From: Labrys wisconsinensis
GTDB lineage: Bacteria; Pseudomonadota; Alphaproteobacteria; Rhizobiales; Labraceae
Length of the DNA: 64,000 bases
Reading direction: 5' to 3'
NCBI RefSeq assembly: GCF_030814995.1
Contig: NZ_JAUSVX010000023.1
Coordinates: 1-64,000 of the forward strand
Shown: positions 23,304-32,149 of the stretch, one piece after another
How positions within the stretch are numbered: the stretch's first letter is position 1
How the letters are laid out: each line of letters opens with the position of its first letter
Translations under genes and position numbers: made by a program
The notes under the pieces: generated by a model
What the model saw: only the letters and a program-made list of their open reading frames with translations
Told to the model about the DNA's origin: nothing
Databases searched by the model: none

Positions 23304-24707
23304 ATGGAAGACCTCGTCAAGACGCCGGCCCCGGTCGTCGACGCTAAGAATTCGGCCCATGACGGGTCTCAGGACGACGTGCTGGCAGCCTGCCTGGCGA
23401 TGGAGCACGTCGCCGACGTCGTCGAGCTTCTCAACGAGCACGATCTCGAGGACCAGGCCCACGTCCTCGTCCACCTGCCGGACGAGCGGGCGATCGAGGT
23501 GCTGGACCAGCCGGGCCTCGACGATCCGGCCGGCCTGATCGAGGCCCTGCCGGCCGAGCGGGCGCTCACCCTGATGGCCGGCATGTCGGCCGACCGGGTG
23601 GCGGAAGTGTTCCGCTACATGAACGACCCGCCGCGCGGCGACCTCCTGCGCCGTCTCGATCCCGAGACCCGGGCGGCGCTCGACCGCGTGCTCGCCTATC
23701 CCGAGAACACCGCCGGCAGCCTGATGACGACGGAGTTCGTCAGCGTGCCCGCCAGCTGGACCGTCGAGCAGACGCTCGACCACATCCGCCGGGTCGAGCG
23801 CACGCGCGAGACGATCTACGCCATCTATGTGCTCGATCCGAAGACCCGCAGCCTGGTGAAGGCGGTCGCCCTGCGCCGCCTGATCACCGCCGACCCCAAG
23901 GCCCTGGTCACCACCGCGGCGCGCTACGACAAGCCGGTGACGGTCTCCCCCCTCGCCGACCGCGAGGACGTCGCCCGCCTGATCTCCAAATACGACCTCC
24001 TGGCCGTGCCTGTCGTCGACGAGTCGCGCCACGTCATCGGCATCGTCACGGTCGACGACGTCATCGACGCCATCGTCGCCGAGAACACCGAGGACGTGCA
24101 GAAGTTCGGCGGCATGGAGGCGCTCGACGAGCCCTACGACCAGATCGGCTTCTTCCAGATGATCAAGAAGCGGGCCGGCTGGCTGTGCGTGCTGTTCCTC
24201 AGCGAGATGCTGACCGCCAGCGCCATGCAATATTTCGAGACCGAGCTGGAAAAGGCCATCGTCCTCACCCTGTTCATCCCGCTGATCATGTCCTCGGGCG
24301 GCAATTCCGGCTCGCAGGCGACCTCGCTGCTGATCCGTGCCCTCGCCCTGCGCGAGGTGAAGCTGGGCGATTGGTGGCGGGTGGCGATGCGCGAGTTCCC
24401 GACCGGCATGGTGCTCGGCGCCATCCTCGGCGTCGTCGGCGTCATCCGCATCGTCATCTGGCAGAAGGCGGGCCTCTACGACTATGGCGAGCACTGGATC
24501 CTGATCGCGGCGACCATCGGCGCTGCGCTGACGGCCATCGTCACCTTCGGCTCGCTGGCCGGCTCCATGCTGCCCTTCATCCTCAAGCGCGTCGGCTTCG
24601 ACCCCGCCAGCGCCTCCGCCCCCTTCGTCGCCACCCTGGTCGACGTCACCGGGCTGATCATCTATTTCAGCGTGGCGCTGATCATCCTGCGCGGCACGTT
24701 GCTGTGA
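23304..24707 (+). CDS. mgtE: Magnesium transporter MgtE
   Basis: Mg2+-selective channel of 467 residues in family order. The N-terminal superhelical domain (about 25-135) has HLPDERAIEVLD and NDPPRGDLLRRL. Two CBS domains (about 140-265) follow. The membrane domain with five helices (about 290-467) contains the pore motif PLIMSSGGNSGSQATSLLIRA in part and ends LVDVTGLIIYFSVAL. The cytoplasmic domains gate the channel when cytosolic Mg2+ is high. An AAGGAAG ribosome-binding site precedes the ATG. A hairpin at 24713-24739 follows. Confidence 0.95.
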   Translation: MEDLVKTPAPVVDAKNSAHDGSQDDVLAACLAMEHVADVVELLNEHDLEDQAHVLVHLPDERAIEVLDQPGLDDPAGLIEALPAERALTLMAGMSADRVAEVFRYMNDPPRGDLLRRLDPETRAALDRVLAYPENTAGSLMTTEFVSVPASWTVEQTLDHIRRVERTRETIYAIYVLDPKTRSLVKAVALRRLITADPKALVTTAARYDKPVTVSPLADREDVARLISKYDLLAVPVVDESRHVIGIVTVDDVIDAIVAENTEDVQKFGGMEALDEPYDQIGFFQMIKKRAGWLCVLFLSEMLTASAMQYFETELEKAIVLTLFIPLIMSSGGNSGSQATSLLIRALALREVKLGDWWRVAMREFPTGMVLGAILGVVGVIRIVIWQKAGLYDYGEHWILIAATIGAALTAIVTFGSLAGSMLPFILKRVGFDPASASAPFVATLVDVTGLIIYFSVALIILRGTLL

Positions 24708-25722: not shown

Positions 25723-26715
25723 ATGACTTCCCTCAAACTCCTGGCCGCGGGCGCAGCGCTGCTGCTCGCCGCCCATGCCCAAGCCGCCGAGACCGTGCGC
25801 ATCGGCTATCAGACCGCGCCGGATCCTTCGCAGGTGGCGATCGTCGACGGCGAGTACGACAAGGCGACGGGCGCCAAGATCGAATGGCGCAAGTTCGATT
25901 CCGGCGCCGGCGTCATCGCCGCCCTCGCCTCCGGCGGCATCGACATCGGCTATGCCGGCTCGAGCCCGCTCGCCGCCGGCGTCACCCGCGGCGCGCCGAT
26001 CCAGGCCTTCCTCATCGCCGGCCTGATCGGCGAGGCCGAGGCGCTCGCCGTGCGCAACGGCTCCGGCATCCAGGAGCCCAAGGACCTCGTCGGCAAGAAG
26101 GTCGCCGTGCCCTTCGTGTCGACGACGCATTACAGCCTGCTGTTCGCCCTCAAGCACTGGGGCATCGATCCCGCTGAGGTCAACATCCTCAACCTGCAGC
26201 CGCCGGAGATCGCCGCTGCCTTCGCCCGCGGCGACATCGACGCCACCTATGTCTGGGATCCCGCCCTGGCCAGCGCCAAGAAGACCGGCAAGGTGCTGAT
26301 CACCTCGGCCGAGGTCGCCAAGCTCGGCGGCCCGACCTTCGTCGCCTGGATCGCCCGCGACGATTTCGCCAAGGCCCATCCCGACATCGTCACCGCCTTC
26401 ACCAAGGTGACGCTGGCCGCCTTCGCCCGCTACCGCGGGGATCCCGCCGCCTACGGGCCGGGCACGGCGCTGGCCAAGAAGATCGCCGACTTCACCGGCG
26501 CCAAGCCGGAGGAGGTCTCCGAGCAGGTCGCCGGCAACTATTATCCCCTTGCCGACGAGCAGGCCTCCGACCAGCTCCTCGGCAAGGGCACGGCCGAGGC
26601 GATCGCCGCCACCTCCGCCTTCCTGAAGGACCAGAAGAAGGTCGACGCCCTGCTGCCGGACTATCGCCCCACGGCGACGGCCGCGTTCGTCAAGGCCGCC
26701 GCCGCGGTCAACTGA
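25723..26715 (+). CDS. tauA: Taurine-type sulfonate ABC transporter, periplasmic binding protein
   Basis: Periplasmic receptor of 330 residues. It keeps long stretches known from E. coli Tau[71 protein letters not shown]. The signal peptide is cut near AQAAE. The resemblance favours taurine or a close aliphatic sulfonate as ligand. It is followed by a strong hairpin (26722-26750), then tauB. The upstream AT-rich operator suggests control by sulfur supply. Substrate is inferred from family resemblance. Confidence 0.88.
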
Positions 26716-26721
26716 GCCGAA

Positions 26722-26750
26722 GGCGGCGCGCCGCAGTCCGGCGCGCCGCC
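26722..26750 (+). promoter_or_regulatory. Intercistronic hairpin between tauA and tauB
   Basis: GGCGGCGCGCC (26722-26732), a 7-nt loop and GGCGCGCCGCC (26740-26750) make a perfect 11-bp GC stem without a T tract. Position directly after the binding-protein gene suggests mRNA stabilisation or partial termination favouring tauA. Confidence 0.75.
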
Positions 26751-26768
26751 CCTGCCGGAAGGATCTGC

Positions 26769-27563
26769 ATGTCCAGTCTCGAGGTCCGCGATGTCGTCGT
26801 CCGCTACGACGCCGCCGCCGGCGCGGTCACCGCGCTCGACCACGTCTCCCTGTCGATCGCGCCCGGCGAGTTCGTCGTGGCGCTCGGCGCCTCCGGCTGC
26901 GGCAAGACCACGCTGCTCAACCTGATGGCCGGCTTCCTCAGCCCGACCAGCGGCACCGTGAGCCTCGACGGGCACGCCGTCACGGGCCCGGGCGCCGACC
27001 GCGGCGTGGTGTTCCAGCACGGCGCGCTGCTGCCCTGGCTCGACGTCATCGACAATGTCGCCTTCGGCCTCCGCCTGCGCGGCGTGCCCGAGGCCGAGCG
27101 GCGCGAGCGCGCCCGGGCCATGCTGCGGCTGGTCGGCCTGGACGGCGTCGAAACTCGGCGCATCTGGCAGCTCTCCGGCGGCATGCGCCAGCGCGTCGGC
27201 GTGGCGCGGGCGCTCACCGCCGATCCCGACTTCCTCTTGATGGACGAGCCGCTCGGCGCCCTCGACGCCCTGACCCGCGAGCAGATGCAGGAGCTGATCC
27301 TCGACATCTGGGGCCGGACGCGCAAGGGCGTCTTCTTCATCACCCACGGCATCGAGGAGGCGGTATTCCTGGCGAGCCGCCTCCTGGTGATGTCGCCGCG
27401 GCCGGGACGCGTCGTCGCCTCGATCCCGCTCGATTTCGGGCGCCGCTACGCCGCCGGCGAGAGGCCGGACGCCCTCAAGGCCGACCCGCGCTTCCTAACG
27501 ACGCGCGAGCGGGTCAAGGCGCTGATCTTCTCCCATCGCCAGCCCCTGGAGACCGCGGCATGA
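26769..27563 (+). CDS. tauB: Taurine-type sulfonate ABC transporter ATPase
   Basis: Importer ATPase, 264 residues, of the nitrate/sulfonate/taurine subfamily. Walker A is GASGCGKTT, the Q-loop [13 protein letters not shown], the signature [15 protein letters not shown], Walker [13 protein letters not shown] and the H-loop ITHGIEEA. The PWLDV stretch and the C-terminal MSPRPGRV are typical of the group. It overlaps tauC by 4 nt (ATGA). Confidence 0.92.
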
Positions 27564-28402
27564 GCGAGGCGACCGCATCCGCGCCGGATCTGGCGCCGGC
27601 CGCCCGGCCGGGGCGCCGCCGTTTCGCTTTTCCCCGGCCGACGCGCATGGTGGGCACCGCCATCGCCACGTTCCTGGTGCTGATCGCCCTGTGGTGGCTC
27701 GCCGCCAGCCTCGAGGTCGTGCCGGCCCTGTTCCTGCCCTCGCCCGGCGCGGTGCTGGCCAAGGCGGTGCTGGTGTCGACCGATGGCTTCGAGGGCGCCA
27801 CCCTGCTGCAGCATCTGGTGGCCAGCGTCTGCCGGGTGGCCGTGGCCCTCGCCGCCGCGGCCGTCACCGGCGTCGCCGTCGGCTTTGCCATCAACCTCAA
27901 CCAGACCGCCCGCGGCATCCTCGAGCCGCTGCTCGAATTCTACCGGCCGATCCCGCCGCTCGCCTATCTGCCGCTGGTGATCATCTGGTTCGGCATCGGC
28001 GAGTTCGCCAAGGTGCTGGTGATCTATCTCGGCATCTTGCCGTCCATCGTCATCGCCACCACCGACGGGCTGCGCTCGGTCGCCCAGGACAAGATCCATG
28101 CGGCGCGCTCGCTCGGCGCGACCCGGGGCCAGGTGGTGCGGCTCGTGCTCCTGCCCCATGCGCTGCCGAGCATCCTCACCGGCATCCGCATCGGCCTCGG
28201 CACGGGCTGGGCGACGCTGGTGGCGGCCGAGCTGATCGCCGCCACGCAAGGCCTCGGCTTCATGATCAAGGGCGCGGCGGATTTCCTCGTCACCGACGTC
28301 GTCATCCTCGGCATCATCGTCATCGCCCTGGTCTCGATCGGCATGGAGCTGGCGCTGCGCCTGCTCCAGCGCATGATCGTGCCCTGGCAAGGCCACGACT
28401 GA
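27560..28402 (+). CDS. tauC: Taurine-type sulfonate ABC transporter permease
   Basis: Inner-membrane permease of 280 residues with about six TM helices. The family motif [19 protein letters not shown] and the EAA loop [19 protein letters not shown] are present. It is coupled to tauB by a 4-nt overlap and followed 21 nt later by the RidA gene. In E. coli the next gene is tauD, a 2-oxoglutarate dioxygenase; here that place is taken by ridA and a flavoprotein-ferredoxin set. Confidence 0.92.
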
Positions 28403-28423
28403 GCCTCCACAGCGAGACAACCG

Positions 28424-28825
28424 ATGATCCAGCGCCATTTCGTCGCCGCCGCGCCGCCGCCGCCCAAGGGCGTCAAGTACCACCATGCCAGCGCCGCGGC
28501 CGGCTGGCTCCACGTCACCGGCCAGCTTCCCACCGATCCCGCCGCGCCGGACGCGCCCTTTCCCGAGGGCATCGAGGCGCAGACCGCGCAGACCTTCCGC
28601 AATCTCGCCACCATCGTCGAGGCCGCCGGCTATTCCTTTGCCGACACCGTGTTCGCACGCATCTACCTCAGCGACTTCGACCGCGACTATGACGGCCTGA
28701 ACCGGGCCTTCTACCGCGTGTTCACCGACGAGGCGGCCGTGCCCTCGCGCACCACGGTGGGCGTCGCCAGGCTCGGGCGCGGCGCCCTGGTCGAGATCGA
28801 CCTCGTGCTCCATCGCGAGCCCTGA
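28424..28825 (+). CDS. RidA/YjgF-family imine or enamine deaminase
   Basis: Product of 133 residues with the RidA fold: GWLHVTGQLP near the N-terminus, then the helix TAQTFRNLATIVEAAG and the C-terminal PSRTTVGVARLGRGALVEIDL. Arg109 and Glu124 correspond to the substrate-binding Arg and acidic residue of deaminating RidA proteins, so activity is likely. RidA proteins hydrolyse reactive imines made by amine or amino-acid oxidation. Its position between transporter and oxidoreductases suggests that the pathway passes through an imine. The stop overlaps the next start (TGATG). Confidence 0.88.
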   Translation: MIQRHFVAAAPPPPKGVKYHHASAAAGWLHVTGQLPTDPAAPDAPFPEGIEAQTAQTFRNLATIVEAAGYSFADTVFARIYLSDFDRDYDGLNRAFYRVFTDEAAVPSRTTVGVARLGRGALVEIDLVLHREP

Positions 28826-30387
28826 TGCCCCGCCCCTCGCAGATGGCGGCCGAGATCGACCTCGCCGCCGACGTCCTGGTCCTCGGCGGCGGCCCGGCCG
28901 GCGCCTGGGCGGCGCTCGCCGCGGCCGAGGCCGGCGCCCGCGTCGTCCTCGCCGACAAGGGCCGGGTCGGCACCAGCGGCGCCAGCGCCGCCGCCAACAC
29001 CGCCGTCATCGCAGCGCCGGATGCCGCCACCCGCGCCGTGGTGATGGAGCGCCGCCTCGCCCGGGGCTTCGGCCTGGTGCAGGCGGAGACGGTCGAGCGC
29101 GTCCTCGACGAGGCCCATGGCCGCCTGCTCGACCTCGGCGCGTGGGGCTACGCCTTCGCGCGCGACGATGCCGGCGCGATCTATCGTGGCACCTTGCGCG
29201 GACCGGACTACCTCCAGCTCCTGCGCCGGCGGCTGCACAAGGCCGGCGTGCGCATCCTCGACCACAGCCCGGCGCTCGCCCTCATCGGCGACCGCGCGGG
29301 CGCGGCCGGCGCCTGGGGCGTCGCCCGGGCCGGGGGCGCGCGCTGGCGCGTGCGGGCCGGCGCGGTGGTGATCGCCACCGGCGGCTGCGCCTTCCGCAGC
29401 AAGGCGCTCGGCACCCACGGCCTCACCGGCGACGGGCTCCTGATGGCCGCCGAGCTCGGCGCCACGCTCTCGGGCATGGAGTTCTCCGGGCAGTACGGCA
29501 TCTCCCACGTCGCGGCGACCGTCACCAAGAACCTGATCTATGGCTGGGCCAGCTTCACCGACGCGACCGGCCGCCGCCTCGAGGGCGAGGACCCCTTCGA
29601 GATCCTGGCGCGCCACCTCCCCGAGGGCCCGGTCTATGCGATGATCGACCGGGCCTCCCCGGCGATCCGCGAAGGGTTGCGCCGCGGCCAGCCCAACATC
29701 TTCCTGCCGCTCGACCGCCTCGGCATCGATCCCTTCACCGAGCGCTTCCCCGTGACGCTGCGCTACGAAGGCACGGTGCGCGGCGTCGGCGGCCTGAGCA
29801 TCGACCCGCGCGGCGCCACCGGCGTTCCCGGCCTTTTCGCCGCCGGCGATGCTGCCTCCCGCGAGAGCCTGGTCGGCGCCACCAGCGGCGGCGGCGGCCC
29901 GAACGCCACCTGGGCCATCGCCTCGGGATGCTGGGCCGGAGCCGCCGCAGCAGCCTTCGCGGCCGGCACCGATGCCCGTCCGGACGGCGGGCCGGTAGCG
30001 GAGATGCCGCTCCTCGACGATGCCGGGCTGGCCGAGGGCCTTCGCCTGGTGCAGGACGAGCTGTTCCCGGTCGAGCGCAATTTCATCCGCGACGGCGCGG
30101 CGATGCGCGGCGCCCGCCAGCGCCTCGGCGAGGGCTGGCGACGGCTGCGCCGGGCCGGGCGCGCGCCGGCGGCCGGGCTCGACGCCGCTCGCCTGCTGCG
30201 CGGCCGCGAGCTCGCCGCCATCACGGCGACGGCGCGCTGGATCAATGCCGCCGCCCTGGCGCGGACAGAATCGCGCGGCATTCATCGCCGCCGCGACTGC
30301 GCCGCGACCGACCCGGCGCAGGCGCGATCCCTTTCCGTCAGCGGCCTCGACCATCCCGTGGCCACCAAGTCCGAGGCCGTGCGATGA
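28825..30387 (+). CDS. FAD-dependent oxidoreductase of the AprA / fumarate reductase flavoprotein superfamily
   Basis: Product of 520 residues. The Rossmann motif GGGPAGAWAAL begins at about residue 21, a TSGASAAANTAV segment at about 50, and the C-terminal FAD-contact motif GLFAAGDAASRESLVGATSGGG at about 340 in part. The fold is that of SdhA/FrdA, L-aspartate oxidase and AprA. The immediate coupling to a dicluster ferredoxin recalls AprAB, but no sulfate-activation genes lie nearby. I infer a dehydrogenase acting on the imported sulfonate or a derivative, passing electrons to the ferredoxin. It overlaps both neighbours (TGATG and ATGA). Confidence 0.8.
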   Translation: MPRPSQMAAEIDLAADVLVLGGGPAGAWAALAAAEAGARVVLADKGRVGTSGASAAANTAVIAAPDAATRAVVMERRLARGFGLVQAETVERVLDEAHGRLLDLGAWGYAFARDDAGAIYRGTLRGPDYLQLLRRRLHKAGVRILDHSPALALIGDRAGAAGAWGVARAGGARWRVRAGAVVIATGGCAFRSKALGTHGLTGDGLLMAAELGATLSGMEFSGQYGISHVAATVTKNLIYGWASFTDATGRRLEGEDPFEILARHLPEGPVYAMIDRASPAIREGLRRGQPNIFLPLDRLGIDPFTERFPVTLRYEGTVRGVGGLSIDPRGATGVPGLFAAGDAASRESLVGATSGGGGPNATWAIASGCWAGAAAAAFAAGTDARPDGGPVAEMPLLDDAGLAEGLRLVQDELFPVERNFIRDGAAMRGARQRLGEGWRRLRRAGRAPAAGLDAARLLRGRELAAITATARWINAAALARTESRGIHRRRDCAATDPAQARSLSVSGLDHPVATKSEAVR

Positions 30388-30758
30388 TCGAGCTCGTCAG
30401 CGCCGCGCGCTGCATCCGCTGCGATTCCTGCGTCGATGCCTGCCCCGACCACGTCTTCGATGCCGTGCCCGGCGGCGTCCCGGTGATCGCCCGGCTCGAC
30501 GACTGCCAGACCTGCTTCCTGTGCGAGCTCTACTGCCCGGTCGACGCGCTCTATGTCTCGCCCCTGAAGGACGATCGCGAGAAGGTCGACGAGGCGGCCC
30601 TGATCGCCTCCGGCACGCTCGGCAGCTATCGCCGGGCGCTTGGCTGGCGCGGCATCAAGGCGGCCGGCACCGAGGGCGACCTCAGCCACCGGCTGTTCGA
30701 GCCCGACGGCACGCCGCATGCGGCGAGCGCCGCCCTGTTCGCCGGCGGCGAGCCATGA
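30384..30758 (+). CDS. 2x[4Fe-4S] ferredoxin-family protein
   Basis: Product of 124 residues with two complete cluster motifs, C10-x2-C13-x2-C16-x3-C20-P and C41-x2-C44-x2-C47-x3-C51-P. A 70-residue C-terminal tail beyond the ferredoxin fold could dock onto the flavoprotein, like the tail of AprB. It should carry electrons between the flavoprotein (upstream) and the FAD/NAD(P) protein (downstream). It overlaps both neighbours by 4 nt, so equal expression of the three is likely. Confidence 0.88.
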   Translation: MIELVSAARCIRCDSCVDACPDHVFDAVPGGVPVIARLDDCQTCFLCELYCPVDALYVSPLKDDREKVDEAALIASGTLGSYRRALGWRGIKAAGTEGDLSHRLFEPDGTPHAASAALFAGGEP

Positions 30759-32149
30759 TCGCGGGGCCTGTGGCGCAGCAGCCGCTGCGCATCGCCGTGG
30801 TCGGCTGCGGCTTCACCGGCGCGGCCTTCATCGTGCACGCCCTGCGCAGCCTGCCCGGCCCGCTCGCGCTCGAGGTGGTCGAGCCTGCCGCCGAGCTCGG
30901 CCTCGGCGTCGCCTATGCCGCCACCGACCCGCTGCACCGCATCAACGTGCCGAGCGATCGCATGAGCCTCCATCCGGAGGATCCCGGCCATGCGACGCGC
31001 TGGCTGTTCCAGGCCGGCATCCTGCCCGGCGACGGCGCCAGCACCGACGCCGCCGGCCATCACTACGTGCCGCGCCGCGCCTATGGCGCCTATGTCGGCG
31101 ACGTGCTGGCCGAAGCGCTGCGCCAGGCCGGGCCGCGGGTCCGGCTGCGGCACCACCGCGCCGTTGCGCTCGGCGCCCGGGCGCTGCCGGACTGGTCGCT
31201 GCGGCTCTCCGACGGCACGACGGTGGCGGCCGACCGGCTGGTGCTGAGCTTCGGCCATGGCGCGCCGGCCGCGCCCTTCCCCATCGCGCCGGAGGCTGCC
31301 GCCGATCCGCGCCTGATCGCCAATCCCTGGCAGCCCGACGCCGTGGCCGCCCTCGACGGCGATACCGCCGTGCTGATCGTCGGCACCGGCCTCACCATGG
31401 CCGATATGGTCGAGACCCTGCTGGCGCGCGGCCATCGCGGCCCGATCACCGCCGTGTCCCGGCGCGGCCTCATCGCCCAGCCGCAGGGCCTCTACCGCGA
31501 CGATTTCGACCTGCTCGAGGGCGGGCCGCCGCCTTCCACCGCCCTGGCGCTGCTGCGGCTGGCGCGGCGCCGGGCCGCGGCGGCGAGCCGTGCCGGCCTC
31601 GGCTGGGCGCCGGCCGCCGACGCCCTCCGCTTCGAGCTGCCCCGGCTGTGGCCGGCCCTGCCGGCAGCGGAGCGCCGGCGCGTGGTGCAGCGCCTTCTGC
31701 CGTTCTGGGAGTCGCACCGCTTCCGCATGGCGCCGCAGCCGCACCGGACGCTCTCCCGGGCCGTCGAGACCGGCCGCGTCCGGGTGGAGCGGGCCGGGGT
31801 GCGCTCGGTCGAGGTCGCGGACGGCCGCCTGGTGGCGACGCTGCGCCGGCCGGGCGGCGCGCTCGAAAGCGCGGCCTTCGGCGGCATCGTGCTGTGCATC
31901 GGCCCGGACCGTGATCCGACGCGCCATCCCCTGGTCCGCGACCTCGTCGCCGCGGGCCTGGCGCGGCTCGACGCGCTCGGCATCGGCCTCGACGTCGACC
32001 AGGGCAGCCGGCTCCTCGACCGGGACGGACGGGCGCAGGCGGGCGCCCTCGCCCTCGGCCCGATGACCCGCGGCACCTTCGGCGAGATGACCGGCGCGCC
32101 CGACATCGTCCGCCGGGTCGCGGCCCTCGCGCCGACGCTGGCGCCGTGA
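30755..32149 (+). CDS. FAD/NAD(P)-binding oxidoreductase of the ferredoxin-linked cluster
   Basis: Product of 464 residues with an N-terminal FAD/NAD(P)-binding fold (RIAVVGCGFTGAAF at about 12-25, then GLGVAYAATDPLHRINVPSDRM in part) of the PF13454 type. A second nucleotide motif occurs at VLIVGTGLTMADMV. The region SRRGLIAQP is typical of the group. No membrane segment is evident. Plausibly it links ferredoxin electrons to NAD(P)H. It closes the seven-gene tau-like operon; no terminator with T tract is visible after it. The exact reaction is unknown. Confidence 0.78.
   Translation: MIAGPVAQQPLRIAVVGCGFTGAAFIVHALRSLPGPLALEVVEPAAELGLGVAYAATDPLHRINVPSDRMSLHPEDPGHATRWLFQAGILPGDGASTDAAGHHYVPRRAYGAYVGDVLAEALRQAGPRVRLRHHRAVALGARALPDWSLRLSDGTTVAADRLVLSFGHGAPAAPFPIAPEAAADPRLIANPWQPDAVAALDGDTAVLIVGTGLTMADMVETLLARGHRGPITAVSRRGLIAQPQGLYRDDFDLLEGGPPPSTALALLRLARRRAAAASRAGLGWAPAADALRFELPRLWPALPAAERRRVVQRLLPFWESHRFRMAPQPHRTLSRAVETGRVRVERAGVRSVEVADGRLVATLRRPGGALESAAFGGIVLCIGPDRDPTRHPLVRDLVAAGLARLDALGIGLDVDQGSRLLDRDGRAQAGALALGPMTRGTFGEMTGAPDIVRRVAALAPTLAP

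Follow-up and report, generated by a model that had tools for sequence, protein, structure and literature searches.

A packed operon of Labrys wisconsinensis with a taurine-type importer, a rare RidA, an AsfA/AsfB-type pair and a probable N-oxygenase: a candidate for aminosulfonate use

Within the first 64,000 nucleotides of contig NZ_JAUSVX010000023.1 of Labrys wisconsinensis (assembly GCF_030814995.1; this whole stretch is hereafter the window), seven tightly packed genes, all on the + strand (25723-32149), form one operon, as judged by their junctions, in which a taurine-type ATP-binding cassette (ABC) importer is followed by a RidA-family protein, a flavoprotein, a dicluster ferredoxin and a PF13454 protein. 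We propose, with a probability of roughly 0.4, that this operon serves the use of taurine or a similar aminosulfonate, taken up from outside, through oxidation of its amine followed by imine hydrolysis, a reading in which we infer the identity of the substrate, an attack on its amine, the sequence of steps and the role of the flavoprotein–ferredoxin pair. In this scheme, TauABC would import taurine or a close analogue, the last protein, similar to the N-oxygenases FzmM and PcxL, would together with the AsfA/AsfB-type pair oxidise the amino group, giving an intermediate at the oxime or imine level, the dedicated RidA would hydrolyse the imine to a sulfo-aldehyde and ammonia, and Xsc, encoded elsewhere in the genome, could desulfonate the sulfo-aldehyde. 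The component families are known; we saw no description of their combination in the literature searched, which consisted of partial listings, mostly the openings of abstracts.

Layout and recurrence of the operon

The genes of the operon are as follows:

25723..26715, +: TauA, taurine-type substrate-binding protein (TIGR01729, 393.7 bits; cut-off 304.25)
26769..27563, +: TauB, ABC transporter ATPase (NF008421, 363.6 bits; cut-off 357)
27560..28402, +: TauC, ABC transporter permease (NF007545, 320.8 bits; just below the cut-off of 342)
28424..28825, +: RidA-family imine/enamine hydrolase of a rare clade (PF01042; Arg109/Glu124; 100/99 clade support)
28825..30387, +: AsfA-type flavoprotein with an SdhA/NadB/AprA fold (PF00890; AlphaFold model; Foldseek; CH34 homologue at 47-49%)
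30384..30758, +: AsfB-type dicluster ferredoxin (Fer4 families; eight Cys)
30755..32149, +: PF13454 FAD/NAD(P) protein, probably an N-hydroxylating flavin monooxygenase (PF13454; 8cp2 profile and Foldseek match; N64)

A preliminary description, drawn from the letters of the DNA, had recognised tauABC homologues and four following genes, and all seven frames lie where it placed them; TauA, TauB and TauC match taurine families. The junctions are likewise as it gave them: 21 nt between TauC and RidA, TGATG between RidA and the flavoprotein, and ATGA both between flavoprotein and ferredoxin and between ferredoxin and last gene. Two frames lie upstream of TauA, one at 23304-24707, which presumably encodes an MgtE-like protein, and a small one without family; a ribosomal L31 gene lies downstream of the last gene. 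Among the matches listed for the nine frames scanned between 24709 and 32533, we found no TauD, luciferase-type monooxygenase, aminotransferase or LysR family, and Rfam gave no match in the window. The earlier statement that no dioxygenase, monooxygenase or transaminase is present is made doubtful in its monooxygenase part by a strong N-hydroxylase relative of the last gene, described below.

Since the same families are found together again in other genomes, their joint occurrence appears to be above chance. The TauABC-RidA-AsfAB set, with or without the last gene, recurs in the family of Paraburkholderia polaris (six genomes) and on a plasmid of Paraburkholderia caribensis, and all seven families occur together in two genomes (loci L211 and L212), where RidA, the N-oxygenase-like gene and a GntR gene are divergent from TauABC-AsfAB. 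The suggestion that the operon is an undescribed system keeps its force for the linked set, which is uncommon and recurs, and loses it for the flavoprotein–ferredoxin pair, which appears to be of the AsfA/AsfB type. The G+C content of the flavoprotein and last genes reaches 77-78%, against 70% for the window; together with the absence of a RidA match from four genomes of the same genus, this is the pattern expected of acquired genes.

With regard to the importer, TauA is the only protein of the genome above the TIGR01729 cut-off, and TauA and TauB exceed their cut-offs with TauC slightly under, which supports a TauABC transporter that imports a taurine-type substrate.

The rare RidA clade and its neighbourhoods

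RidA-family proteins hydrolyse imines and enamines, and the window protein carries the catalytic-type residues R109 and E124 that had been noticed beforehand, which we take to correspond to the Arg105-type and Glu120-type catalytic residues. Its particular form is rare. Leaving aside its own genome, the window's class (385 genomes) has one genome with identity above 50%, and its order (397 genomes) six with matches at E ≤1e-36; in the family of Paraburkholderia polaris, matches at E ≤1e-38 occur in 8 genomes out of 398. Four plasmid records hold matches as well (L060, at 50%, is left out of the count).

In the phylogeny that we inferred, a branch supported at 100/99 separates the window RidA and 18 relatives from 18 comparators (41-50% identity), 16 of which were taken from 18 weaker-match genomes of the window's class (two left out) and 2 from AsfA-bearing genomes. 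The neighbourhoods of these loci, in which matches count from ≥33% identity (45% for TauA), differ along the same line: at least one of the N-oxygenase-like, AsfA, TauA or AllG genes lies near 15 of the 18 relatives, several of which are near copies of one another, versus none of the 18 comparators, four of which (L183, L186, L189 and L191) lie on short contigs. Among the comparators, the AsfA-like match of L198 (27%) falls under the 33% rule, and one (L184) has a TauA- or TauC-like gene nearby. TauABC and AsfAB stand beside RidA in 7/18 relatives (L059, L207, L208, L209, L211, L212 and L214), with the broken AsfA and TauC frames of L207 counted as pieces, and an N-oxygenase-like gene lies within 123 bp of RidA in 7/18 (L153, L211, L212, L229, L230, L233 and L234). 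The members linked to TauABC-AsfAB occupy three positions of the tree, which may reflect repeated linkage or losses. A generic housekeeping role of the window RidA is disfavoured by its clade and its neighbouring genes. At L058, an SfnB-like gene lies 82 bp from RidA.

AllG (PF06545, oxamate carbamoyltransferase subunit) is found near RidA in six of the 18 clade relatives (L229, L230, L153, L209, L210 and L213), three of which (L153, L229 and L230) have the N-oxygenase-like gene as well. At L229, an NMT1-type importer accompanies amidohydrolase and nitrilase genes. Such neighbours of RidA and N-oxygenase relatives, as well as an identity of 46% between the window TauA and E. coli TauA, would fit an operon that salvages some other small amine or an arylamine sulfonate, the importer's ligand being no aminosulfonate and the TauA label misleading. 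We consider this explanation unlikely: TauA lies far over the TIGR01729 equivalog cut-off, and TauA relatives at 55-61% identity, in the four modules compared, accompany the same partners.

The AsfA/AsfB-type pair and the last gene

The AprA/SdhA-fold flavoprotein and the eight-cysteine dicluster ferredoxin of the preliminary description were both recovered, the former by its AlphaFold model (mean predicted local distance difference test score, pLDDT, 86.9; predicted template modelling score, pTM, 0.90) and Foldseek, the latter by its two CxxCxxCxxxCP motifs. Foldseek matched the flavoprotein to fumarate reductase, succinate dehydrogenase, 3'-phosphoadenosine 5'-phosphosulfate (PAPS) reductase, L-aspartate oxidase and adenylylsulfate reductase, at 17-24% identity across the 50 fold matches listed, and its top NCBIfam match is L-aspartate oxidase at 87 bits, far under the cut-off of 452.75. 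L-aspartate oxidase oxidises a C-N bond, forming an imine. In the printed alignments, a histidine and an arginine of FrdA, presumably His355 and Arg390, are not conserved.

The assignment of this pair as AsfA/AsfB-type is indirect. On CHR2 of C. metallidurans CH34, tblastn (E ≤1e-3) found one flavoprotein-homologous place, whose pair is 49%/53% identical to that of the window (47-49% for the flavoprotein). On this sequence, which was read without locus tags, ~205 kb separate the homologue from a frame of 669 codons at 722.7 kb that has six QW motifs and is taken as sqhC Rmet_4148. Counting 186 genes of ~1.1 kb from that frame leads to 928 kb, the place expected of Rmet_4334; the homologue thus fits, by this indirect path, the published position of Rmet_4334/5. 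No LysR gene is among the five neighbours scanned beside the CH34 pair, nor among the 10 nearby genes scanned at four AsfA loci in genera associated by name with asfA or kin to these. Another CH34 pair, at 793-796 kb, was rejected as the true AsfA/AsfB: its proteins presumably correspond to TcuA/TcuB, and its flavoprotein scores only 19.9 bits to the AsfA profile.

A scan of genome contigs confirmed at least 445 relatives of the flavoprotein, and the following counts refer to the best 80 of them. The ferredoxin homologue is present in 78/80 loci, directly after the flavoprotein in 77/80, TauA- or TauC-like genes lie near 63/80 (against 1/18 of the RidA comparator loci), SsuD, luciferase-like monooxygenase (LLM), SfnB, TauD or 2-oxoglutarate (2OG)-oxygenase-like genes near 41/80, and the last gene's family near 4/80. 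Two close copies of the pair occur in each of L103, L122, L127, L022 (Paenibacillus) and L105 (Bradyrhizobium). A single origin of AsfA in the RidA-TauABC loci is neither shown nor rejected (approximately unbiased test, p 0.285; L207, which has only AsfA fragments, stayed outside the tree), such that the AsfA tree is compatible with one or two origins.

The surroundings of the pair give rise to a serious rival, which we hold to be somewhat less probable than the proposed amine route: AsfA/AsfB may, as proposed for arylsulfonates, be the electron donor of an FMNH2-dependent monooxygenase, such as SsuD, whose gene lies elsewhere and which cleaves the C-S bond oxygenatively, with RidA and the last protein clearing reactive by-products. 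Indeed, the pairs sit in sulfonate and organosulfur loci with the importer-like and oxygenase-like genes just counted, and the genome encodes two SsuD proteins above cut-off. The excerpts of a review available to us report that insertions in asfA deprive P. putida S-313 of the use of aromatic sulfonates and spare that of aliphatic ones, and assign a reductase/ferredoxin role to AsfA/AsfB (PMC4267179). However, the neighbourhoods of the RidA clade point toward imine chemistry, and four of the seven other TauABC-AsfAB-RidA loci (L207, L208, L209 and L214) have no SsuD, LLM, SfnB, TauD or 2OG match within ~19 kb; L059, L211 and L212 do have LLM or SfnB matches.

As for the last gene, the proposed amine route draws on its relationship to N-hydroxylating flavin enzymes. 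A profile of 21 relatives, compared with solved proteins, has the aspartate N-hydroxylase 8cp2 as its top match (E 1.2e-22; next match 5.3e-10), over an N-terminal and a C-terminal stretch, and 8cp2 is also the top Foldseek match of the predicted structure (E 9.9e-20), followed by ornithine and lysine hydroxylases. Asn62, which lies over the flavin in the solved enzyme, corresponds to N64 of the last protein and is invariant in 21/21 sequences. On sequence and model grounds, the last gene thus probably encodes an N-hydroxylating flavin monooxygenase. According to the parts available to us of the study of the solved enzyme, the latter takes NADPH and O2 as co-substrates, binds an inhibitory sulfate at its substrate site, and has in its subgroup PcxL, an oxime-forming N-oxygenase of 2-aminoethylphosphonate (PMC10404684).

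This relationship bears directly on the mechanism given in the preliminary description, an oxygen-free dehydrogenation of the amine by AsfA, hydrolysis by RidA, and passage of electrons through the ferredoxin to the FAD/NAD(P) protein. On this scheme, the last protein would reduce NAD(P). The oxygen-independent scheme is disfavoured because the closest solved relative of the last protein is an NADPH/O2-dependent monooxygenase, a fact that does not thereby prove N-oxygenation; its N-hydroxylase match leads by ~12 orders of magnitude in E-value, with the catalytic Asn kept throughout, and the resemblance speaks against the place given to it as an electron acceptor. Nor does the last gene appear to be a dedicated ferredoxin partner, since its family occurs without AsfAB in the fetched stretch, beside RidA (L153, L229, L230, L233 and L234) or in runs of SsuD and transporter genes. 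The oxygen-free scheme draws some credit from the presence of L-aspartate oxidase in the fold family of AsfA, from five loci that unite RidA with TauABC-AsfAB and lack the N-oxygenase-like gene in the fetched stretches, and from ferredoxin reductases among the weaker matches of the last gene (ferredoxin-NADP reductase 3ab1 at Foldseek rank 8; putidaredoxin reductase at 1.6e-7 in the profile search). Taken together, we judge it improbable.

Within the proposed amine route, the imine may arise in two ways: AsfA may dehydrogenate the amine directly, or the last protein may N-oxygenate it and a further step, perhaps with AsfAB as reductant, may then give the imine. Taurine is the sulfonate analogue of 2-aminoethylphosphonate, and one fully specified version, built on this analogy, would run from taurine to sulfoacetaldehyde oxime (PF13454 protein), through N-O cleavage by AsfA/AsfB to the imine, and through RidA to ammonia and sulfoacetaldehyde, from which Xsc would free sulfite, with no need of TauD, Tpa or TauXY; in all its details, we regard this version as a long shot.

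Relatives of the last gene were also seen at the end of SsuD-transporter runs in L154 (G324:C5) and L155 (G227:C16), directly after ssuD in L062 (Aureimonas plasmid) and after a luciferase-like monooxygenase gene in L056 (Caballeronia plasmid), which suggests a wider role of PF13454 relatives in sulfonate use. Across the window's class, where 27 other genomes contributed 29 loci, most relatives had no sulfonate gene in the 1.5 kb on either side; three had transporter matches (L027, L028 and L054) and two had weak TauD-like matches.

Sulfonate metabolism of the genome and known systems

The preliminary description had named a tauD elsewhere in the genome as a possible explanation of taurine use. 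We rejected it, as no canonical TauD was found in the genome: its single PF02668 protein (on G000:C7) scores 77.8 bits, against the NCBIfam taurine dioxygenase cut-off of 313. The gene of this TauD-superfamily protein (G000:C7:326633-327463) has a peptide/nickel-type binding-protein gene on one side and a PhnM-like phosphonate gene on the other. None of 10 genomes has a taurine dioxygenase above the cut-off, which the E. coli control exceeds. The genome encodes one Xsc (sulfoacetaldehyde acetyltransferase) above cut-off (866.6 bits, G000:C8:173865-175556), whose five scanned neighbours encode MnmA, a GGDEF protein, a thioredoxin-like protein, a major facilitator superfamily transporter and a sensor kinase.

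Several of our observations weigh against the proposed amine route. On the side of desulfonation, no taurine gene is among the five neighbours of Xsc, the two SsuD proteins could perform this step, and a missing TauD does not characterise module carriers in general, because other module genomes hold TauD-like proteins that reach 287.6 bits, just under the cut-off. On the side of gene linkage, most AsfAB-type pairs lack the window-type RidA as a neighbour (near 0/80 of the flavoprotein relatives); no RidA above 51% was found in 21 AsfA-bearing genomes searched whole, 3/18 clade members (L058, L231 and L232) have none of the partner genes, and the AllG and amidohydrolase/nitrilase neighbours represent a different nitrogen-compound setting. 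Finally, the model of the last protein is of moderate quality (pLDDT 70.9, pTM 0.66), its superposition on 8cp2 has a root-mean-square deviation of 9.6, and, of the arginine cluster with which FzmM binds its substrate, Arg13 is not conserved, a conserved Arg being found in the helical domain outside the FzmM alignment. The N-oxygenase-like gene is moreover missing from the fetched stretches of 5/7 other TauABC-AsfAB-RidA loci, and is thus not essential to a core for which this absence favours AsfAB and RidA; where the gene adjoins RidA elsewhere, a functional pairing of those two is favoured.

From a wider perspective, sulfonate cycling in soils is followed with AsfA as a marker, as the accessible portions of two papers indicate (PMC4267179, PMC9694294), and no defined reaction of AsfA was found in the partially available literature that we searched. 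With a recurring operon in which an imine hydrolase, a probable N-oxygenase and a taurine-type importer accompany the AsfAB-type pair, AsfA chemistry becomes open to direct testing. If the amine is attacked, this would be an additional taurine route besides TauD, Tpa and TauXY, and N-oxygenation with reductive N-O cleavage, if true, would for the first time give an AsfAB-type pair a defined chemistry.

Among known systems, asfRABC of aromatic sulfonate desulfurisation likewise has a flavoprotein and ferredoxin gene pair beside a sulfonate-type ABC transporter, whereas the window has TauABC in place of AsfC and its transporter and adds RidA and the PF13454 protein; we do not name the operon asfRABC because no LysR was found among the nine frames scanned and its binding protein is TauA. 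The sulfur-starvation operon tauABCD of E. coli shares the tauABC homologues in equal order, but the window operon lacks tauD and its genome a canonical TauD. Taurine dissimilation through TauXY or Tpa and Xsc would have sulfoacetaldehyde and Xsc in common with the proposed route, and the genome encodes Xsc, although away from taurine genes; neither TauXY nor Tpa was seen among the operon families, to which the search for them was confined. NadB, AprAB and fumarate reductase share the flavoprotein fold, and AprAB likewise pairs a flavoprotein with a ferredoxin; identities are low, as given above for the fold matches listed, and the FrdA residues that we take as His355 and Arg390 are not kept in the window flavoprotein. 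The N-oxygenases FzmM, CreE and PcxL differ from the last protein in Arg13 and in the setting of their genes, that of the window lying in a transport operon and not in an antibiotic cluster; they resemble it in profile, fold and the conserved Asn62, and the substrate of PcxL is the phosphonate analogue of taurine.

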